Shown: one piece after another, positions 6,874 through 26,931 of the stretch
Layout of the letters: each line of letters starts with the position of its first letter
Position numbering within the stretch: the stretch's first letter is position 1
IMG/VR virus record: IMGVR_UViG_3300006052_000018
Span: 1 to 36,857 of that record
DNA: 36,857 bases
Strand: one strand, 5' to 3'
DNA from: a virus
Made by a program: the position numbers and the translations under genes
The notes under the pieces: generated by a model
Told to the model about the DNA's origin: nothing
Databases searched by the model: none
Seen by the model: the letters and a program-made list of their open reading frames with translations, nothing else

Positions 6874-7725
6874 TTAGGAAGATGTGATTTTCCAAAATTC
6901 TGTGGGTTTTTTACGATAAACTTCTAGGTTAACTTCTTTCAATTCGGGAATGGATGTATAATCTATGTTGCCCTTACGAATGAAACGAGAAACCTTTACC
7001 CCTGAACCCATCGAGTTCTTGTTATTGCTCATTGCAATCAATGACTTTCTCAGTGCCTCTTCTTTTTGTTCTAGTATTCTAAGTTGTTCATTTATTTTGG
7101 TCCATTCTATCGCTTGGCAAGCCCACGCTTCATCCGTTTTAACTTCAAAATCTCTTGCCGTCATCTTCGGTGGCATGAATTCTTGCAGACATTGCCAAAA
7201 AGCTTGCTCCTTTTCAAGCATTTTCTTTATATACTTGTCATCCCTGTAAACTTTTACAATGGCACCCGATGATCCGTCGAAAGAAAAATAGTAAGACATA
7301 TCCAATTCACACACTTCGAGCTGATGTTGTAGTTGAGGAAAGTACTTCTCGGGGATCTGTCCATGTAAAGCTTTCTGATGATCCACTGCTCCAGGACATT
7401 TTATCTCAGCTATATGTTTCGACTCCGCATCGATACCGTCTAAGGAAGCGATCATCCAGGAAAAAGAAGTATGTTGCTTTATTCGAGGTAAAAAAAATAT
7501 CCCCGTCATCTTCTCCAATTCCAGACGGGCTGACTCTTCTAGATCAAGACCCCTTCTCATGCTGGATGATTCAGCTCTTTTGGGCGCTAAATCGTTCTTC
7601 TCTTCCCAAAGTTGGTAGGGTGTTTTCCACGGGGAGACTTCCATGATGACCGGGGCGTCACTTGCCCCGATCTTGTTTTTACGCATTTGCAGCCACTCAG
7701 GCGTGTTTTGTTGCATGTTATCCAT
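6874..7725 (-). CDS. YqaJ-like (lambda Exo type) recombination exonuclease
   Basis: A 283-residue member of the YqaJ viral recombinase / lambda exonuclease fold (PD-(D/E)XK). Visible motifs: NTPEWLQMRKNKIGASDAP (7-25), RGLDLEESA (58-66), SLDGID with catalytic D96, the AEIKCPG motif with E107 and K109, and PQLQHQLEV (130-138). Such enzymes resect dsDNA 5' to 3' and hand the single strand to an annealing or binding protein. The start is set at ATG 7725 because GAGG lies 6 nt upstream and ATGGATAA overlaps the stop of the ssDNA-binding gene, implying coupled translation. An upstream in-frame TTG (7737) is less likely. All key residues are present. Confidence 0.9.
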   Translation of the reverse strand: MDNMQQNTPEWLQMRKNKIGASDAPVIMEVSPWKTPYQLWEEKNDLAPKRAESSSMRRGLDLEESARLELEKMTGIFFLPRIKQHTSFSWMIASLDGIDAESKHIAEIKCPGAVDHQKALHGQIPEKYFPQLQHQLEVCELDMSYYFSFDGSSGAIVKVYRDDKYIKKMLEKEQAFWQCLQEFMPPKMTARDFEVKTDEAWACQAIEWTKINEQLRILEQKEEALRKSLIAMSNNKNSMGSGVKVSRFIRKGNIDYTSIPELKEVNLEVYRKKPTEFWKITSS

Positions 7726-8524
7726 TGATAACCTCAAGCTCTTCGTTCTTCTCTCTGATCGCCTGGTAATCGTTTCTGTGCTTGGTCAATGCATTCTTGA
7801 TGCGATCAAACAATATGGCTGGCAAATCATCGAGACGCGTGATGTCCGCGGAGGATTTTTTAAGATGATCCATCAACTTAGTAAAAAAATTTGGATCACA
7901 ATCCTCGATGATTGCATTTAATTCCTGCAATTGATCTGCAGAGATTGTGCCTTTAGTTTCTACTTGCTCGAAGTTCATGTTATCCTGAGAGAAAATACCA
8001 GGAGTGCGCTGTTCCGAAGATGATGCAAAAGGGTCTTCGTTGTCATAGAGAGCATCCAAATTACATGGTCTCTCATTGAATTTTTCGATGATATGCTTAG
8101 CTAACGGCTTATGCGGTAATGGATTGACTGTATACTCCGTCTCGATTTTCTCTCCCTTCTTGATAATCTTGATATCATAGAAGAAAGGCGCGCCCCAATC
8201 CTCGTCATTGCACAAAGACTCAATACCATTACGAATGGTTGCTTGAGTGACGTGTAGGATTTGTATTTGTTCCTCGGCGTAATTCCATACAACGAAAGCC
8301 CAGAAGTGTTTGACTGGTTTGGAAGCATTAAGTGGCTTTGTAGGTTTGCTATCGAATCGAAAGCGCACTGGTTTTTTCGTTGCACCTTCCTCTAACCAAT
8401 CTTCCCAGCCTAGAATGGGTTGGGTTAGAATGCGTATTTTATTGTCTCCTTCTTGTAATTTCATATAGTAGTTGGAAGATTTGGGTGCTTCGTAACCTTT
8501 TGGAAGGAATGTTATTTTGCTCAT
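7718..8524 (-). CDS. gp32-like single-stranded DNA-binding protein
   Basis: A 268-residue protein starting at ATG 8524 (AGGAG, 5 nt spacing). The N-terminal two-thirds has the conserved pattern seen in phage ssDNA-binding proteins encoded beside YqaJ nucleases: YYMKLQEGDNKIRIL, PVRFRF, VKHFWAFVVWNY, IQILHVTQATI and DEDWGAPFFYDIKI. The acidic region (NEDPF) and helical C-terminal part may mediate protein contacts. It would protect the single strands made by the nuclease and aid annealing and replication. The coupled overlap with the nuclease gene supports a joint role. The family call rests on motif memory; it could also be named a recombination-associated OB-fold protein. Confidence 0.75.
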   Translation of the reverse strand: MSKITFLPKGYEAPKSSNYYMKLQEGDNKIRILTQPILGWEDWLEEGATKKPVRFRFDSKPTKPLNASKPVKHFWAFVVWNYAEEQIQILHVTQATIRNGIESLCNDEDWGAPFFYDIKIIKKGEKIETEYTVNPLPHKPLAKHIIEKFNERPCNLDALYDNEDPFASSSEQRTPGIFSQDNMNFEQVETKGTISADQLQELNAIIEDCDPNFFTKLMDHLKKSSADITRLDDLPAILFDRIKNALTKHRNDYQAIREKNEELEVING

Positions 8525-8532
8525 ATTGGCTC

Positions 8533-8850
8533 CTATGAATTTTTTAGTTCTTGTAAGTGTGTTTGGTTGATTTGTAAAAGTTCTTGTAAAAGAGCACCTT
8601 CTGCTTTTGGCATTGGGACAACTTTTGTTTGAGATGGGTCGCATTTGATTGCGAGACTGGTACTAGGAATCTTAAGACCCACTAAGTGGGCAGTTTCCTC
8701 AAGAGATCTCTCCAGGTCTGCAATATCGAAATATTCTGGATCGTAAAGATGCTTTAACACATCTTTGAGCCAGTATTTTATATTGACTAGCTGCTCGGAT
8801 TGCTCCTCACATACGTAACAAGTGGGTTCTAAGTATGGTTCATCGTACAT
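8533..8850 (-). CDS. Hypothetical protein, first gene of leftward operon
   Basis: I do not recognise this 105-residue acidic protein. It has a single Cys pair (CYVC, near residue 12) and two predicted helical stretches (EQLVNIKYWLKDVLKHLY and DIADLERSLEETAHLVGL). There is no signal peptide. It starts at ATG 8850 with AGAG upstream and lies 8 nt before the ssDNA-binding gene, so it is transcribed first from the leftward promoter near 8957-8985. A role in early recombination or replication is inferred from position only. Confidence 0.6.
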   Translation of the reverse strand: MYDEPYLEPTCYVCEEQSEQLVNIKYWLKDVLKHLYDPEYFDIADLERSLEETAHLVGLKIPSTSLAIKCDPSQTKVVPMPKAEGALLQELLQINQTHLQELKNS

Positions 8851-8956
8851 TTTGGCTCTCTAGTGTGTTCTTTTTTAAAATAATCTTTTTGGTTTTTAGC
8901 TGCTACAACTCGCTGCGTTTGATGCAGTCACCGAGGAGACTTGCTTTGCGTGCACT

Positions 8957-8985
8957 AATATAGCTGATAATGTATTATCAAACAA
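8957..8985 (-). promoter_or_regulatory. Leftward early promoter of recombination operon
   Basis: Read on the minus strand, TTGTTT (8985-8980) and TATATT (8962-8957) are separated by exactly 17 nt, a sigma-70-like arrangement with a 5/6 match at -10. Transcription would start near 8950, about 100 nt before the first gene at 8850. The whole spacer is occupied by a palindrome. Confidence 0.55.
8965..8980. promoter_or_regulatory. Operator-like palindrome TGATAAT-GT-ATTATCA
   Basis: A perfect 7-bp inverted repeat around a 2-bp centre lies between the -35 and -10 boxes of the leftward promoter. A protein bound there would block RNA polymerase. The HTH protein encoded from 9084 is the obvious candidate ligand. 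Weaker dyads with CACA/TGTG arms lie at 8986-9036 (for example AAATGTG...CACATTT) and may be further sites. Confidence 0.5.
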
Positions 8986-9035
8986 CACAAATGTGCTGTT
9001 TTTTTACACATTTAAAATTATGCCAAATGCATGTG

Positions 9036-9064
9036 TTGATTTAAATTATTGAAATTTCTAAACT
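9036..9064 (+). promoter_or_regulatory. Possible rightward promoter of the regulator gene
   Basis: TTGATT (9036-9041) and TAAACT (9059-9064) are 17 nt apart, each matching 4 of 6 consensus bases. Transcription would begin near 9071, just before the duplicated ribosome site of the HTH gene. The match is weak and the region is AT-rich, so this is tentative. Confidence 0.3.
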
Positions 9065-9075
9065 CTTTAGTTTTT

Positions 9076-9111
9076 GGAGGAATATGGATATAAGGAGGAA
9101 TATGGATATAA
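9076..9111 (+). repeat. 18-bp tandem duplication of ribosome site plus start
   Basis: GGAGGAATATGGATATAA occurs twice in direct succession (9076-9093 and 9094-9111). Each copy has a full Shine-Dalgarno and an ATG. The period is six codons, so both starts are in the same frame. Confidence 0.9.
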
Positions 9112-9356
9112 GACAATATTTAGAAGAAAATAAATTGACTCTCGGATGGGTAGCGCATCACGTGCAATATTCTCTTGGACATATACAACAAATAGTCGCA
9201 GGAACTAGAAGACCTGGAAAAAGACTCATTCGGGATATAAAAAAACTAACCAATGGTATGGTGATGACGGCGGATGATATATGTTCTCCACGCAAGAAGA
9301 AAGAAAAAGTTGGGTGTGTTGAATCCGATGTGAAAAATTCCTCGGATCAAGTATAG
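9084..9356 (+). CDS. HTH (XRE/Cro-like) transcriptional regulator
   Basis: 90 residues from ATG 9084, or 84 from the equally good ATG at 9102; both have GGAGG. Residues about 10-52 (QYLEENKLTLGWVAHHVQYS... then HIQQIVAGTRRPGKRLIRDIKKL) fit the five-helix XRE/lambda-repressor-like fold, with the recognition helix near SLGHIQQIVAG. The C-terminus is basic (PRKKKEK), then acidic. It is divergent from the recombination operon, and a palindrome lies between them, so it probably acts as a Cro-type switch on 8957-9064. With no integrase seen, it need not be a lysogeny repressor. Confidence 0.7.
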   Translation: MDIRRNMDIRQYLEENKLTLGWVAHHVQYSLGHIQQIVAGTRRPGKRLIRDIKKLTNGMVMTADDICSPRKKKEKVGCVESDVKNSSDQV

Positions 9357-9364
9357 AAAAAAGT

Positions 9365-9660
9365 GAGCGGTAAGAGAGCCATCTCCACCGCTCGGGAAAC
9401 ACACTAGATCTAATCACAAAACAAGCGATACCTGCCACGGAGACCTTGTTTTGTCAAAATGCCCACAGTAGGGCTAAAACTAAAGATCGGCTCCTAGAGA
9501 GCCACTATTACTAGATGGGCTACAAGAAGCCCCATTACTGTCCTCGGTGAGAGGACGGAGAAACAGATTTAATAACAAAGAGGTTATAAGAAACCTCATT
9601 GCTGTCCTCGGAGAGAGGACAGAGATAATAAAGAGGCTTTTAAAAGAGGTTTTTATTTTC
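9365..9660 (+). ncRNA. Array of at least eight RNA hairpins (structured leader or ncRNA)
   Basis: Between the regulator and replication genes there is no convincing protein. Perfect or near-perfect hairpins follow one another: 9365-9393 (GAGCGG/CCGCTC), 9416-9454 (ACAAAACAAG/CTTGTTTTGT), 9461-9474, 9489-9503 (GGCTC/GAGCC), 9515-9534, 9540-9556 (GTCCTC/GAGGAC), 9580-9597 (GAGGTT/AACCTC) and 9604-9620 (GTCCTC/GAGGAC). The last four form two copies of a two-hairpin unit of about 64 nt. The first hairpin of each copy is followed by ATTACT or ATTGCT. The stems change sequence while staying paired, which suggests selection on structure. It could be an antiterminator (put-like), an attenuator or a small RNA. 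The strand is assumed from the flanking genes. Confidence 0.55.
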
Positions 9661-9783
9661 TCTTATACTAGCCCGTTTATTTTAACGTACTTGTTCAGAG
9701 GTTTTTACACCACAAAAAAGCCGTTACGGTTGCCAGTTTAACATCATCGAGGATTTTATGAAATAGGAAATTTTTTCTTTAAG

Positions 9784-9824
9784 GGATAAAAAAACAAACC
9801 CCGTTGGCGAAAATAACAACGGGG
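9784..9824 (-). terminator. Intrinsic terminator for leftward transcription
   Basis: On the minus strand, CCCCGTTG (9824-9817), a 10-nt loop and CAACGGGG (9806-9799) form a perfect 8-bp stem. It is followed by TTTGTTTTTTT, an ordinary Rho-independent terminator. No leftward gene is seen just upstream, so it would stop antisense transcription coming from the replication genes before it enters the hairpin array. On the plus strand it lacks a T tract. Confidence 0.6.
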
Positions 9825-9857
9825 AATGTGATGAGGACCTACTCATCTTAAATAGGG

Positions 9858-9879
9858 TTCCCCCTTTTTTGAGGGGGAA
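9858..9879 (+). promoter_or_regulatory. Hairpin that sequesters a ribosome site
   Basis: TTCCCCC (9858-9864) pairs perfectly with GGGGGAA (9873-9879) across an 8-nt loop. The right arm is the Shine-Dalgarno of the small ORF at 9884, 6 nt before its ATG. Translation of that leader ORF would depend on opening this stem. Confidence 0.5.
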
Positions 9880-9883
9880 TAAC

Positions 9884-9970
9884 ATGAAAAAATATTCAAA
9901 GAAGAACGTCAGGCTGCAGCCTTACAAGGAGGAAAAAATAAAAAACCTCGATGAAGAAATAAAGCCCTAA
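9884..9970 (+). CDS. Small basic leader ORF (28 aa)
   Basis: A 28-codon ORF (MKKYSKKNVRLQPYKEEKIK...) with an unusually strong Shine-Dalgarno (GAGGGGG) held in a hairpin. The product is highly charged and lysine-rich with no hydrophobic segment. It lies 80 nt before the replication gene and is followed by a second mini-ORF. It could be a small regulatory protein or a leader whose translation controls downstream expression. Evidence is the ribosome site and spacing only. Confidence 0.4.
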   Translation: MKKYSKKNVRLQPYKEEKIKNLDEEIKP

Positions 9971-9986
9971 CAAGGGAGAACGTACC

Positions 9987-10040
9987 ATGCAGCCACAATT
10001 TATGGAAGAAAAATCTTTAAGAAACTCAGAACGAAAATAG
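9987..10040 (+). CDS. Mini-ORF upstream of replication gene (17 aa)
   Basis: ATG 9987 opens a 17-codon frame (MQPQFMEEKSLRNSERK) after GGGAG. The stop (TAG 10038-10040) overlaps the AGGAG that serves the replication gene at 10051. It may simply couple ribosomes to the next start. The protein itself may have no function. Confidence 0.3.
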   Translation: MQPQFMEEKSLRNSERK

Positions 10041-10050
10041 GAGAAGTAAA

Positions 10051-11244
10051 ATGGTTACAACAGAAGAAGAATTCGAAGGTTCCACAATTCAAAGATGTCC
10101 GCACGACAAACAACATCCTTATGTCATGATCAATTCAAATCTCATCGACGATGAAACAATTTCTCCCTTATGCAGATGGCTATTAATATATTTATTGAAA
10201 AATAAGGACGGATGGAAAATTTGCCCCCAGCAGGTCATAAATCATGCGAAAGAATTTTTAGGAAGAGACAAAGTTTTAGCCCTTTTTGACGAAGCTATCG
10301 AAAAAGGGTACATGTACCGTGTGGTCAAGAAAAATGGGAATTTAAATAATGGTTATAAATATTTTGTCTCAGAAACTCCAAAATTCAAAAAATCTTTCCG
10401 AGACCCTGAAAAGCCGGAGACTGAAAAATTAAAAAAATCTTTCCGACAACCGGCTCCTCAGGGTTCCGAAGCCCAGGCTCCTGAAGACACGGAACATAAC
10501 TATAATGAATATATAAATTCTATATTCCCTAGAGAGATAAACAAAGAAGAAGGGGGGGAACTAGAAGCGCGCGCTCCCGCGCACGCGACCCCACCCCCCC
10601 CTTCTTCTTCGGCTGCTCCACTCAAGAAAACAAAATCCGATACTCCGTTAAAGTCACCATCCAAAGTCTTACCCAAGGTCCCACCCAAGGATGACAAAAT
10701 ATCTTTTGGAGAACATGTGAAACTTCGACCTGAGGAATATGAAACTTTATGTGGTGATCTTGGGAAAGCTGTGATTGATTTGTATATCACTAAGATTAAC
10801 AACTATGTACCCAATAAGCCTGGCGCTCCATACAAAGATTATGCGGCCGTCATACGTCAATGGATCTTCAAAGACCAGACGGAAGGAAAGAAAATACCGG
10901 TCCCCGTCCAACCAAAAAGTGGAGAATCAAAAAATAAATTTGATTTAAATAAAAAACTTTGCGATAGAGCTGAGATGGAGCTGTTGCCATTCGTGACTAC
11001 TCGGACGTTCTTTAACGCAGGACCTAATGAGGCCATTTTGATTTCCATCGAGAAAGATGTGGAGATTAGATACTCTTACGACATTGACACACAAGTGTTA
11101 AAAAATAAAATAATACAAGACTGTGAGCGGTACATCGGTGTAAGAGCAGCTGAGGCTTTGATGGGAAAACGGCAAAAAACTGTGGGTGACATAGTGGGCC
11201 AAGCATATGAAAGTCTACAAAAACAAACGTGCATGAGAGTTTAG
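10051..11244 (+). CDS. Phage replication initiator / DnaD-like protein
   Basis: A 397-residue protein. Residues about 20-115 form a probable winged-helix domain (VMINSNLIDDETISPLCRWLLIYLLKNKDGWKI... GYMYRVVKKNG), as in phage replication proteins. A disordered proline-, serine- and lysine-rich linker (about 120-220) contains two KKSFR repeats and a proline run. Residues about 230-280 (LRPEEYETLCGDLG... NYVPNKPGAPYKDYAAVIRQWIFKD) match the DnaD-type module of phage replisome organisers that loads host helicase. It has AGGAG before ATG and abuts the RusA gene. The linker DNA has a C8 tract and alternating GC, unlike its AT-rich surroundings. The origin could lie in or near this gene; I see no clear iterons. 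Confidence 0.75.
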   Translation: MVTTEEEFEGSTIQRCPHDKQHPYVMINSNLIDDETISPLCRWLLIYLLKNKDGWKICPQQVINHAKEFLGRDKVLALFDEAIEKGYMYRVVKKNGNLNNGYKYFVSETPKFKKSFRDPEKPETEKLKKSFRQPAPQGSEAQAPEDTEHNYNEYINSIFPREINKEEGGELEARAPAHATPPPPSSSAAPLKKTKSDTPLKSPSKVLPKVPPKDDKISFGEHVKLRPEEYETLCGDLGKAVIDLYITKINNYVPNKPGAPYKDYAAVIRQWIFKDQTEGKKIPVPVQPKSGESKNKFDLNKKLCDRAEMELLPFVTTRTFFNAGPNEAILISIEKDVEIRYSYDIDTQVLKNKIIQDCERYIGVRAAEALMGKRQKTVGDIVGQAYESLQKQTCMRV

Positions 11245-23566: not shown

Positions 23567-24082
23567 CTAATTTAAAAGATATTCTAATGTAATAGTACCA
23601 CTCAAAATATTATTATTGCCAGAGCCATTAGTGATGGTAATGATGGTATCATTGATATAAATACTCACTTGCTGATCAATATTCACAGTGGAAACGAAAG
23701 GAATTGGTTCATATTTGGCATTGGTGATCACTGATGCATCCGTAATACAGCTACCATAGATACTTACAAATTGTGTAATGCCACTAATTCCATGAGTGAT
23801 GTCCAGACTTGCTCCAGCTGCGATCGCTCCAAAAGAAAATAACTGCCGGAAAGATTGCCTATATTGTAATGGCATCGCAACGCTGGTATTTTGGTTGGTA
23901 TAATATTTATTTCCTGTGGCTACCTGTACAGTATTGTAAATACCTATTGTCCTAGTATTTATCGCTTGCACGATATCAGTATCTCTCTTGGATAAGGTAT
24001 TTTGCAATTCTTTTGGATCTGTAGGAAAGCTTTGCGTCGTGGGAAGATATGGAACTTGAATGGATAAACTAGAAGTGGTCAT
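23567..24082 (-). CDS. Conserved small tail protein
   Basis: 171 residues. The opening (PYLPTTQSFPTDPKELQNTLSKRDTDIVQAINTRTIGIYNTVQVATGNKYY) is, from memory, a common signature of a tail-associated protein found beside the gp10-like protein in such phages. The C-terminal half is a beta domain. The start overlaps the upstream stop (ATGA). Probably part of the tail-tube or fibre attachment complex. Confidence 0.65.
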   Translation of the reverse strand: MTTSSLSIQVPYLPTTQSFPTDPKELQNTLSKRDTDIVQAINTRTIGIYNTVQVATGNKYYTNQNTSVAMPLQYRQSFRQLFSFGAIAAGASLDITHGISGITQFVSIYGSCITDASVITNAKYEPIPFVSTVNIDQQVSIYINDTIITITNGSGNNNILSGTITLEYLLN

Positions 24083-26931
24083 GCGAGTGTAGGCCCTGGG
24101 TAAAGATCTAGAACAATGGCATACATTTTGATCTCTTGAGTATTAATGGTTGAATCATACATCTGTGCATCGCTGAGAGTGAATCCTAACTGTATTGTGT
24201 CGCCATTAAAGCTGTTGCTCTGCCTATGCCAGATTTGATCTTGTCCTGCTTGATAAGGAGGAATGGCGCTAGAATATAAACTTGGCTCCGGAGAAGTGAG
24301 TACTACATTTTGATAAATCAAATAAGGATTGATGCTCGGATCGTTGCTCGCCAGATCAGAGTTCTGGCTAGAATAGATATTTACCGTGATTTGTCCGGTG
24401 GCCGTCGTTTCCAAAAGAAATCTTTCCAAGCCAAAACGCACCTGGCGTCCATCTTGCCAACGTACAGGAAATTGCTTAGTCTGCACATCAGGATTGCTAT
24501 AGCGAATATAAGTACCGCCCCCCAGATAAGTACCAACAATAACCACAGGATTAGTAGGTGAAGGCACAATTGTGAAATTATTCGCGTCCGTTGGAGTGAT
24601 CTTGAAAATATTCCCATTGAGACCGGTAACTCCTATGACGCCGTTGATTTGGATAAAGTCTCCCGTATTGAGACAATGATTTGGAGAAGTGATGGTAAAT
24701 CCAGATACGGCTGTAATGTATTGTGAATTGGCTTCTTCTGTTCCTAGACCTTTGATGAGCACAAATCCATGTTGATTTCCTCCCACAATATTTGGGAAAA
24801 ACGCTGCATCTCCTGCAAAATTCCAAGGATCTGTCCAGTCTGCCCAGGTGGGATATATGGTACCGATATTTGCCCATGTTCTAAAGGTAGTTCTGCGAAA
24901 GGTTCCGTAATGGGTAAAATTCTCGTCGAAAGTTGCCCAATTGTTGTCCCTATAATTATATAGAAGGGTTTTGCTGTTGAAGACATTCTGAGGACGATCT
25001 CCAGGGCAATAAGTGAAATAGACCCATTCATTGCGATAATCACGTATGGCCGTTACTCTAGAACTGTTATTATTGGCTATGGAGACATCAAAGACCTGGT
25101 CTAGTATCAGAAGATCTATGCGTTGACAACTTGTCTGTGTTGTCATTGTAAAGCCATTGGTGGCCATTCCTAACACACCAGTATCAAGGATCACAGAGGA
25201 AAATGTATTCTGAGCGCCAAATTCTGAGTTAATTGTCTGAAAGATAAATGGCAACGTGTCGTCGAATGTATAGATTAATCGCAGTTGTTTTGTCTCCAGA
25301 GCATAGATGAGCACATCTTCGTTCTCGGATACTGTAACAATATATTGATCGTAAGGAGCAGTGAGAAAACCTCCTTTTGCAACTTGATTCTGATACCATG
25401 CTGTTGGATCTGGTGCTTGTGTTTGAATGACAAATGGCAGAGGATTAGCGTAATATGGAGTGCCTACTTGAGAATAAACGATACGATTGGGATAATACTG
25501 AATCGTTGGAAAGATAGAGGTATTAGTTAGATACACTCCTGAAAATATCAATCTATTTTTGAATGGAGTGATAATATCGGCACCCACTAAATAGAAAGGA
25601 TTTGGGTTTGTACTAGCGTTGAAAGCATTTAAAGGTGGTGAGAAATTCACCCAACCAAAATTTGCGCTAACTGTAGGATCGCCATCGTACCATTTGATAC
25701 CATCTCCTGTGCTAGTACCTCCTCCATTAGATGTCAGAGTGAGAAAAATACCGCTATTATTTATGGTTTTTCCTGTGGTGTTGATAGCTACAGTGAAAGA
25801 ATCAGGTCCCGTTACAGTCACAGAAACGGATTGATTATTTAATAACCCCGCATCTGCTCCAGTGATTTCATTGAAGAATACAAAATCCCCCGTCACAAGT
25901 CCGTGAGCTGTGGCGGTAGTAATGATAGTGGGACTACCAACAGTAATCGTAGAAATGGCTTGGAAATGGAATCCCGGTTTGCCATTAGTCACCCAAAGAC
26001 ACCCGGAATTCTCAGTCGTATTGGCAATCGTATTAGTGCCAAGATAGTTTGTGGAGTAGAACTGTTGATAATTAGCCCCTGTCCAAACAAAAGGGGTCCC
26101 TGTCTCTTTGTAGAAGGTGACATCGTAAAATTCGTTGGTTCCTTGATTGAACTCATAAGAATAGATCGTATCAAAAGCTACAGGAATAGGTTGATTGACG
26201 AGTCCAATATCGAAATCTTCGAATCCCATTACCGGAAGACCCGGATAGTAGGAAAAAGTCACTATGGTAGCTATCCCTGTACCAGCAGTATGAGTTAAAA
26301 CCACAGTTCCTGTCTGATAATTTATCGTGCCACTATTACCTGGTGTTACACTACTTAATGTGCCATTTCCATTATCAGTAAAAACAATTATTCCTAAAGT
26401 AATTGTTATAGATCCAGGAACCAGTGTTAGATTAGCTTGATTCGCTATTTTCCAATTTCCACTAGAAATATAAGCGCTGTAAGTTGTTGTATCCAATCCA
26501 ATTGTGAAATTATTTGCATCGACTATTGTAATAGTGAAAGTGAAGCCATTTAGTCCACTTGTCATAGTAACCGGATTGATCATCCCATTGACGTTATATA
26601 TGACAATAGATTCACCACTTGTTAAGTTATGTCTTGGACTGGTTACTTGAGCAGGATTTGCATTTGTGATATTGCTGATGTACCCACCAAAACCAATTGA
26701 TGAAAGAACATTCAGTGTCCAAGGAGAAGCTAAGCTATTTCCCAGAGATTCCGAAACTAAGGTTCTCTCTAAACGTCCCAGCAGATCGGTACCTCTTTTT
26801 CTTGCAATCTGCTCCCTCCAGATATAGGCATTATTCAAGACAGGAAAGGCGTCATTGTTGATCAAAAAAGGCTTTCGATCTGTCTCATAACCCGTTTTGA
26901 AGTTACTTACAACCAGATGATCGACAGGCAT
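24079..26931 (-). CDS. Large tail hub / DNA-stabilisation-like protein with E1-FCCH-like repeats
   Basis: 950 residues. The N-terminus (SNFKTGYETDRKPFLINNDAFPVLNNAYIWREQIARKRGTDLL) and the bulk of the protein look like the tail-tube/stabilisation protein (P22 gp10 or tubular-B-like) that plugs the portal. Inserted are at least three copies of a module of 50-60 residues that open with T[AS]xHxLxxGDxVxxxx and close with NNFTI. They lie near residues 85-165, 335-400 and 755-815, and resemble the FCCH domain of ubiquitin-activating E1 enzymes, a known decoration in phage tail proteins. The same module occurs in two head-neck proteins here. The gene begins in a TAATG overlap. Confidence 0.65.
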   Translation of the reverse strand: MPVDHLVVSNFKTGYETDRKPFLINNDAFPVLNNAYIWREQIARKRGTDLLGRLERTLVSESLGNSLASPWTLNVLSSIGFGGYISNITNANPAQVTSPRHNLTSGESIVIYNVNGMINPVTMTSGLNGFTFTITIVDANNFTIGLDTTTYSAYISSGNWKIANQANLTLVPGSITITLGIIVFTDNGNGTLSSVTPGNSGTINYQTGTVVLTHTAGTGIATIVTFSYYPGLPVMGFEDFDIGLVNQPIPVAFDTIYSYEFNQGTNEFYDVTFYKETGTPFVWTGANYQQFYSTNYLGTNTIANTTENSGCLWVTNGKPGFHFQAISTITVGSPTIITTATAHGLVTGDFVFFNEITGADAGLLNNQSVSVTVTGPDSFTVAINTTGKTINNSGIFLTLTSNGGGTSTGDGIKWYDGDPTVSANFGWVNFSPPLNAFNASTNPNPFYLVGADIITPFKNRLIFSGVYLTNTSIFPTIQYYPNRIVYSQVGTPYYANPLPFVIQTQAPDPTAWYQNQVAKGGFLTAPYDQYIVTVSENEDVLIYALETKQLRLIYTFDDTLPFIFQTINSEFGAQNTFSSVILDTGVLGMATNGFTMTTQTSCQRIDLLILDQVFDVSIANNNSSRVTAIRDYRNEWVYFTYCPGDRPQNVFNSKTLLYNYRDNNWATFDENFTHYGTFRRTTFRTWANIGTIYPTWADWTDPWNFAGDAAFFPNIVGGNQHGFVLIKGLGTEEANSQYITAVSGFTITSPNHCLNTGDFIQINGVIGVTGLNGNIFKITPTDANNFTIVPSPTNPVVIVGTYLGGGTYIRYSNPDVQTKQFPVRWQDGRQVRFGLERFLLETTATGQITVNIYSSQNSDLASNDPSINPYLIYQNVVLTSPEPSLYSSAIPPYQAGQDQIWHRQSNSFNGDTIQLGFTLSDAQMYDSTINTQEIKMYAIVLDLYPGPTLA

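Follow-up and report, generated by a model that had tools for sequence, protein, structure and literature searches.

A predicted antisense small RNA gene with two seeds complementary to the recombination operon of a tailed phage

The stretch analysed here (the window) is a complete virus record of 36,857 bases and belongs to a tailed phage, which encodes a terminase and a P22-like portal. Its early region is divergent, with leftward genes running from 8850 to 6624 and rightward genes in the opposite direction (Table 1). On the rightward side, a gap of 694 nt separates the gene for a 90-aa regulator from that for a replication initiation-like protein, and the left part of this gap is occupied by an array of RNA hairpins. 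The interval between the array and the replication gene also holds two possible tiny plus-strand reading frames of 28 and 17 codons (9884-9970 and 9988-10041). Elsewhere in the window, a presumed tail protein of 950 aa (24079-26931, minus strand) carries three Pfam E1_FCCH domain matches (E 6.8e-26).

Table 1. Features of the early region, ordered by position; strand is left empty for hairpins assigned to neither strand.
Feature	Coordinates	Strand	Sequence or remark
YqaJ-type recombination exonuclease	6874-7737	-	Pfam YqaJ, E 4.7e-24; same operon as m105 and m308
m308	7718-8524	-	weak likeness to phage single-strand DNA-binding (SSB) proteins
m308 ribosome-binding site	just upstream of 8524	-	AGGAGCC; second predicted target
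m105	8533-8850	-	first gene of leftward early operon; no family match; main predicted target
Target site (m105 leader, ribosome-binding site, start codon)	8848-8869	-	AACACACTAGAGAGCCAAAATG
Structured leader element	8902-8941	-	just downstream of leftward promoter, in nascent leftward mRNA
Leftward promoter-like sequence	8957-8985	-	TTGTTT-17-TATATT; overlapped by perfect palindrome TGATAATGTATTATCA at 8965-8980
90-aa regulator	9084-9356	+	weak helix-turn-helix match; convergent with predicted small RNA
Core antisense small RNA gene (predicted)	9357-9456	-	upstream hairpin, linker, terminator; about 100 nt
Hairpin 1, intrinsic terminator	9357-9393 (stem 9365-9393)	-	GAGCGGT..ACCGCTC + ACTTTTTT; -18.2 kcal/mol on minus strand
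Seed 2 (terminator loop)	9373-9381	-	TGGCTCTCT; complementary to m105 ribosome-binding site 8853-8861
Seed 1 (linker)	9398-9408	-	TCTAGTGTGTT; complementary to 8859-8869, just upstream of m105 Shine-Dalgarno
Hairpin 2	9416-9454	-	10-bp stem ACAAAACAAG/CTTGTTTTGT; upstream hairpin of core RNA; counterparts in relatives
Hairpins 3-8	9461-9622		most of both 44-nt repeat copies; possible 5' extension of small RNA
Hairpin 3	9461-9474		plus-strand loop ACAGTA
Hairpin 4	9489-9503		plus-strand loop CTAGA
Hairpin 5	9517-9532		plus-strand loop ACAAGA
Hairpin 6	9538-9558		plus-strand loop GGTGA; also delimited as 9540-9556
Hairpin 7	9580-9597		plus-strand loop ATAAGA
Hairpin 8	9602-9622		plus-strand loop GGAGA
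Hairpin 9	9632-9654	+ only	weaker than hairpins 1-8; five G-U pairs
Second leftward intrinsic terminator	9786-9829	-	before replication gene
Replication initiation-like protein	10051-11244	+	PHROG replication families

The hairpins described in the initial annotation are present, eight of them within 9365-9622. Folding of the 304 nt from 9357 to 9660 on the plus strand yields -100.1 kcal/mol versus -68.4 for shuffled sequences (z -6.48; 0 of 100 shuffles as stable), and it is this energy z-score that distinguishes the array, which does not rank first for density in the window when perfect Watson-Crick stems are simply counted. As the same annotation had proposed, a unit of two hairpins is repeated, its 44-nt copies being 84% identical and 64 nt apart (9518-9561 and 9582-9625). 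Between the copies the first stem is altered on both sides twice with pairing kept (GGGCT/AGCCC to GAGGTT/AACCTC), the second stem is unchanged (GTCCTC/GAGGAC, with GGTGA or GGAGA as its loop), and ATTACT or ATTGCT is located after the first stems. One stem that had been called perfect, TGGGCT/AGCCCCA, does pair, but contains a bulge. Folding of the minus strand is equally stable (-98.5 kcal/mol), so the strand had to be settled by other means.

Whereas the earlier reader took the RNA to be plus-strand, the leftmost hairpin forms an intrinsic terminator on the minus strand: it is a strong stem with a U-tract on that side only, while on the plus strand AAAAAA precedes hairpin 1 and no T-run follows. 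This U-tract terminates at the stop codon of the regulator gene (9354-9356), which the 3' end of the core RNA abuts; RNA and regulator gene overlap by a few nucleotides at most, and the seeds match another mRNA. The terminator loop TGGCTCTCT complements AGAGAGCCA, which immediately precedes the m105 start codon, and the linker TCTAGTGTGTT complements AACACACTAGA, just ahead of the loop target. Positions 9397-9405 of the linker additionally match the m308 leader at 8556-8564 (9 nt). A search of the window for a convincing sigma-70 promoter for the core RNA found none, and promoter-like sites near the array occur at chance level. Taken together with the comparisons below, these features make it likely that 9456-9357 on the minus strand is an antisense small RNA gene, similar in kind to OOP and c4, that would repress the recombination operon of the phage. 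The proposal that the array encodes an RNA is thus retained, with the amendment that at least hairpins 1 and 2 would belong to an antisense RNA that is made from the opposite strand and acts by base pairing.

Relatives were gathered via the terminase (80 loci) and the YqaJ exonuclease (80 loci). A three-part layout of upstream structure, short linker and strong terminator hairpin is found in the window and in 18 other phage contigs, and in several relatives the minus-strand terminator at the equivalent place has a different stem and the same loop, GATGGCTC. In all 19, the loop complements the ribosome-binding site of either the first or the second gene in a leftward early operon that comprises an SSB- or RecT-like gene and the YqaJ exonuclease. 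Furthermore, loop and target covary, from UGGCUCUCU/AGAGAGCCA in the window to UGGAUCCUU/AAGGAUCCA and GUGGUUC/GAACCAC in relatives; individual loop/target pairs are TGGATCCTT/AAGGATCCA (L093), GTGGTTC/GAACCAC (L111 and L133), ATGGCTCCT/AGGAGCCAT (L114), TTGGCTCTCC/GGAGAGCCAA (L137) and GGTGGTGCT/AGCACCACC (L141). The longest linker matches are those of L090 (14 nt), L114 (12), L147 (11), and L120 and L258 (9 each), and there is little or no linker match in L093, L101 and L128 (4 nt) or in L137, L141 and L218 (5 nt). In L101, L114 and L137 the second gene has the same start-site motif and is also matched; in L009 the second gene is RecT-like. L109 has a terminator with a GGCTC loop that does not match its own first gene. 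The comparison of genomes thereby supports the predicted terminator, the architecture and the covarying complementarity at two sites.

The arrangement is present in 19 of the 83 YqaJ loci examined, most being without it. Alignment of replication proteins identified 15 loci, and a leftward terminator in front of the replication gene is common to many of them; among these 15 such a small RNA was seen in L179 alone, which is the same contig as L008/L091. Leftward terminators before rep thus recur in many rep relatives that lack the small RNA. A scan with the window replication protein alone returned no relative, and one for RusA found nothing. By YqaJ, the nearest named phage is Bdellovibrio phage phi1422 (32% identity), in which gene order differs, and YqaJ relatives also occur on plasmids.

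Loop pairing was examined by picking terminators and start sites regardless of matching and comparing own with permuted pairs. For the first test, 14 of the 80 YqaJ loci were removed by hand as near-duplicates or as lacking upstream sequence, and the remaining 66 plus the window gave 67, of which 42 were usable; the related loci L114 and L136 were both kept here, and L136 was omitted from the 13-phage linker test below. Loops matched their own start sites over at least 9 nt in 7 of 42 loci (permuted pairs averaging 0.6 and never exceeding 4 in 1,000 permutations), over at least 8 nt in 9 of 42 (1.8 permuted, maximum 6), and over at least 10 nt in 3 of 42, a count reached in 4 of 1,000 permutations. 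A second test, on 16 loci with new contigs from a second YqaJ scan (13 usable), was not significant, with matches of at least 7 nt in 3 of 13 versus 2.0 permuted.

The linker provides an independent test, as it was never used to select members. In 13 phages, the mean longest match between the linker and the stretch upstream of the Shine-Dalgarno sequence was 7.62 nt versus 5.19 in permuted pairs, a value reached in 0 of 10,000 permutations, whereas the crossed control of loop against the same upstream stretch gave no signal in these phages (3.69 versus 3.51). The linker also showed a weaker signal against the Shine-Dalgarno sequence itself (14 of 10,000; 13 phages), because the two stretches overlap. 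Six later members that had been found by their loops only gave 6.5 versus 4.94 (176 of 10,000), and all 19 phages together gave 7.26 versus 4.98 (0 of 10,000). The loop-versus-Shine-Dalgarno score of the 13 phages is circular, since members were selected by that score.

In the proposed mechanism, the two seeds would bind side by side on the leftward early mRNA of the same phage: the loop would cover the Shine-Dalgarno sequence as far as the start codon, with the linker on the stretch immediately 5' of that sequence. Pairing in this position should block ribosome binding, and would in this way hold down m105, the SSB- or RecT-like gene and the YqaJ exonuclease; that the RNA is transcribed and acts as a repressor we infer from the sequence. 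Because its gene and the regulator gene face each other with their 3' ends, rightward transcription would make a perfect complement of the RNA, and the complement made by transcription from the regulator to the replication gene could switch silencing off. The family would be marked by co-evolution of two seeds with their target and by its aim at the recombination operon. As each seed has a defined partner (the Shine-Dalgarno sequence for the loop, the preceding stretch for the linker), members and targets should be predictable from raw sequence, and natural seed/target pairs can be swapped to test the predicted pairing.

To our knowledge, known phage antisense RNAs are mostly single cases that govern lysis versus lysogeny. 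OOP of lambda, a short leftward RNA ending at a terminator of its own, is encoded between an early regulator gene and a replication gene, and the predicted leftward RNA, with its own terminator, lies in a similar position. The mechanism is of a known kind, that of the phage antisense RNAs c4, OOP and sar as treated in passages of PMC12197685. In these passages c4 of phages P1/P7 is an antisense RNA whose complementary stretches, probably displayed in loops, pair around a ribosome-binding site (PMC12197685). Like c4, the predicted RNA has loop stretches with computed complementarity to a phage mRNA around its ribosome-binding site. Unlike c4, which targets the antirepressor gene ant, it is predicted to act on m105 and on the SSB- or RecT-like gene preceding YqaJ; it also carries a terminator of its own, is encoded away from its target and falls in a window without an Rfam match (no family at gathering score in the window, and none credible up to E 10 in 8830-9900). 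OOP RNA is described as antisense to cII (PMC12197685); in contrast to this cis-antisense RNA, pairing here is predicted with a separately transcribed mRNA of the same strand via two short seeds. The same source lists sar RNA of P22, of 68/69 nt, as acting in trans by pairing with a phage mRNA and stopping antirepressor synthesis (PMC12197685), whereas the RNA predicted here differs in target and location, any sequence relation to sar being compared through Rfam only. Full-text literature searches, mostly at abstract level and without most subscription journals, returned no description of this small RNA family.

Hairpins 3-8 lie 5' of the core RNA when read on the minus strand and may be a phage-specific 5' extension, in which a hairpin-linker-hairpin module was duplicated and seeds were added. 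On this strand, TGGCTCTCTAG of hairpin 4 (9494-9504) is complementary over 11 nt to the m105 ribosome-binding site, and TCACCGAGGA of hairpin 6 (9541-9550) over 10 nt to the leftward leader element. Overall, the minus strand of the region has matches of 11, 11, 10 and 9 nt to the leftward leader, and the plus strand none of at least 9 nt. Two matches of at least 10 nt in the extension arise in 8 of 20,000 shuffles (p about 4e-4) and in 2 of 3,626 genome windows. The hairpin 4 and 6 matches favour a longer, multi-seed RNA in the window phage. Evidence against such an extension is that the plus strand alone allows the outer pair of hairpin 6 and the whole of hairpin 9. Absence from related genomes had been named at the outset as evidence against a functional RNA; the repeated unit is indeed absent from all relatives fetched, only the window phage having the 9461-9622 part, while the small RNA itself is present in relatives. 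That the whole array is one minus-strand multi-seed antisense RNA of about 300 nt, grown by duplication of the hairpin-linker-hairpin module, is a tentative reading that we consider somewhat unlikely. Its loops would grip a single leader at the folded element (8928-8937), before the Shine-Dalgarno sequence and at the ribosome-binding site, and would also reach the second gene of the operon. If true, tailed phages of Chlamydiota would have a widespread family of two-seed silencers of recombination genes, turned off when convergent early transcription sets in, and this RNA would be its elaborate extreme.

Extra seeds upstream of the core were also considered as a general feature of these phages (40 of 5,000 permutations; 13 phages) and rejected, the strong cases L133 and L141 being explained otherwise. 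In L133, about 165-250 nt upstream of the terminator, there are three repeats GTGGTGTTCAT (the first being TGGTGTTCAT), which are complementary to the start of the leftward transcript and operator-like in appearance. In L141, about 330 nt upstream of the terminator, the opposite strand reads as a start site, CACGGAGCACCACCATG. Since the former is an operator-like promoter repeat and the latter the start of a second gene, these seeds are not counted as general support. This L141 start site and the first leftward gene have the same ribosome-binding site, and a single small RNA might therefore act on both early operons.

We think it unlikely that the array is instead a structured plus-strand leader of the replication operon (an antiterminator, an attenuator or a protein-binding RNA), the minus-strand matches of hairpins 4 and 6 then being due to chance. 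The array is stable on the plus strand, where alone hairpin 6 pairs fully, through its outer U-G pair, and hairpin 9 forms, through its five G-U pairs; there are compensatory changes between the repeat copies, and the array sits in the 694-nt gap of the rightward operon. Against this, the U-tract of the leftmost hairpin is on the minus side, no U-tracts follow hairpins 1-8 on the plus strand, and the unit has neither an Rfam family nor a homologue in viral contigs or in phage and plasmid records: blastn of the array gave one chance-level match of 34 nt among 50,697 phage records and nothing useful among 72,556 plasmid records, and its exact hairpin pattern had only three matches in viral contigs, all in DNA that by eye looked coding. 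Nor do the loops of hairpins 3-8 suggest a CsrA-type sponge, GGA being present in one of six on the plus strand.

Put RNA of phage HK022 consists of paired hairpins in early phage transcripts, and the initial annotation had likened the array to it. This likeness finds no support in phage records or Rfam, and unlike put the array starts behind the 90-aa gene and not next to an early promoter. That position is held by the leader element at 8902-8941, and a put-like or other leader function is therefore to be sought there rather than in the array. The element consists, in order, of AGTCTC, a stem, a purine-TGA bulge in most members, a second stem and GTTGTAGC. Among 13 phages, whose elements are the regex hits judged genuine (the remaining hits looked coding), AGTCTC is invariant and GTTGTAGC near-invariant, with no Rfam match. 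Its eight pairs are 92% paired in these phages, with six changed on both sides; the covariation score is 0.58 versus 0.25 in shuffles, and the number of further pair types does not exceed that of shuffles. The palindrome that overlaps the promoter just upstream is unique in the window and is a probable repressor operator.

We regard as distinctly improbable that the array, read on the plus strand as the 3' region of the rightward transcript, titrates the small RNA as a decoy. Such a decoy would offer perfect complements of both seeds and, in hairpin 4, a second copy of the target, the plus strand there reading CTAGAGAGCCA exactly as the target site does. With a convergent layout this complementarity is automatic; as a result of overlap it proves no function, and the extra target copy is found in the window phage only among the ten loci compared. 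Finally, DNA-level elements, either palindromic operators or replication iterons, are very improbable: two 17-bp palindromes GTCCTC-N5-GAGGAC do lie 64 bp apart beside the replication gene, and L133 has its operator-like repeats at a similar place, but stem letters vary with pairing kept, a constraint that operators do not need, the exact palindrome occurs nowhere else in the window, the leftward promoter has a palindrome of its own, and in 19 phages the loop/ribosome-binding-site matches fall in terminator loops and beside start codons.

A Bacteroidota host was first suggested by Flavobacterium and Cellulophaga phages with matches to the leftward protein of 308 aa, and by TTTG motifs read as promoters. 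It was dropped because the leftward promoters look sigma-70-like and because YqaJ relatives (E 1e-30 or better) were found in 9 of the 232 genomes from the phylum to which a Simkania MAG belongs (Chlamydiota) versus 0 of 395 from that of a Bacteroidetes MAG. Terminase relatives (1e-60 or better) were found in 4 of the same 232 Chlamydiota genomes, and several of the Chlamydiota matches come from contigs as large as such a phage (36-41 kb). The hosts are thus probably Chlamydiota, as judged from sequence matches in MAGs, in which binning errors are possible. If this link holds, the predicted RNA would represent RNA-level regulation in a little-studied group of phages. One of five loci from Chlamydiota assemblies has the arrangement, with only a 6-nt match that is below threshold. 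Phage-sized contigs with YqaJ relatives in these assemblies are G166 contig 1, G094 contig 388, G002 contig 2, G053 contig 126 and G126 contig 19, and one further YqaJ relative lies within a 1.17-Mb contig of G162.
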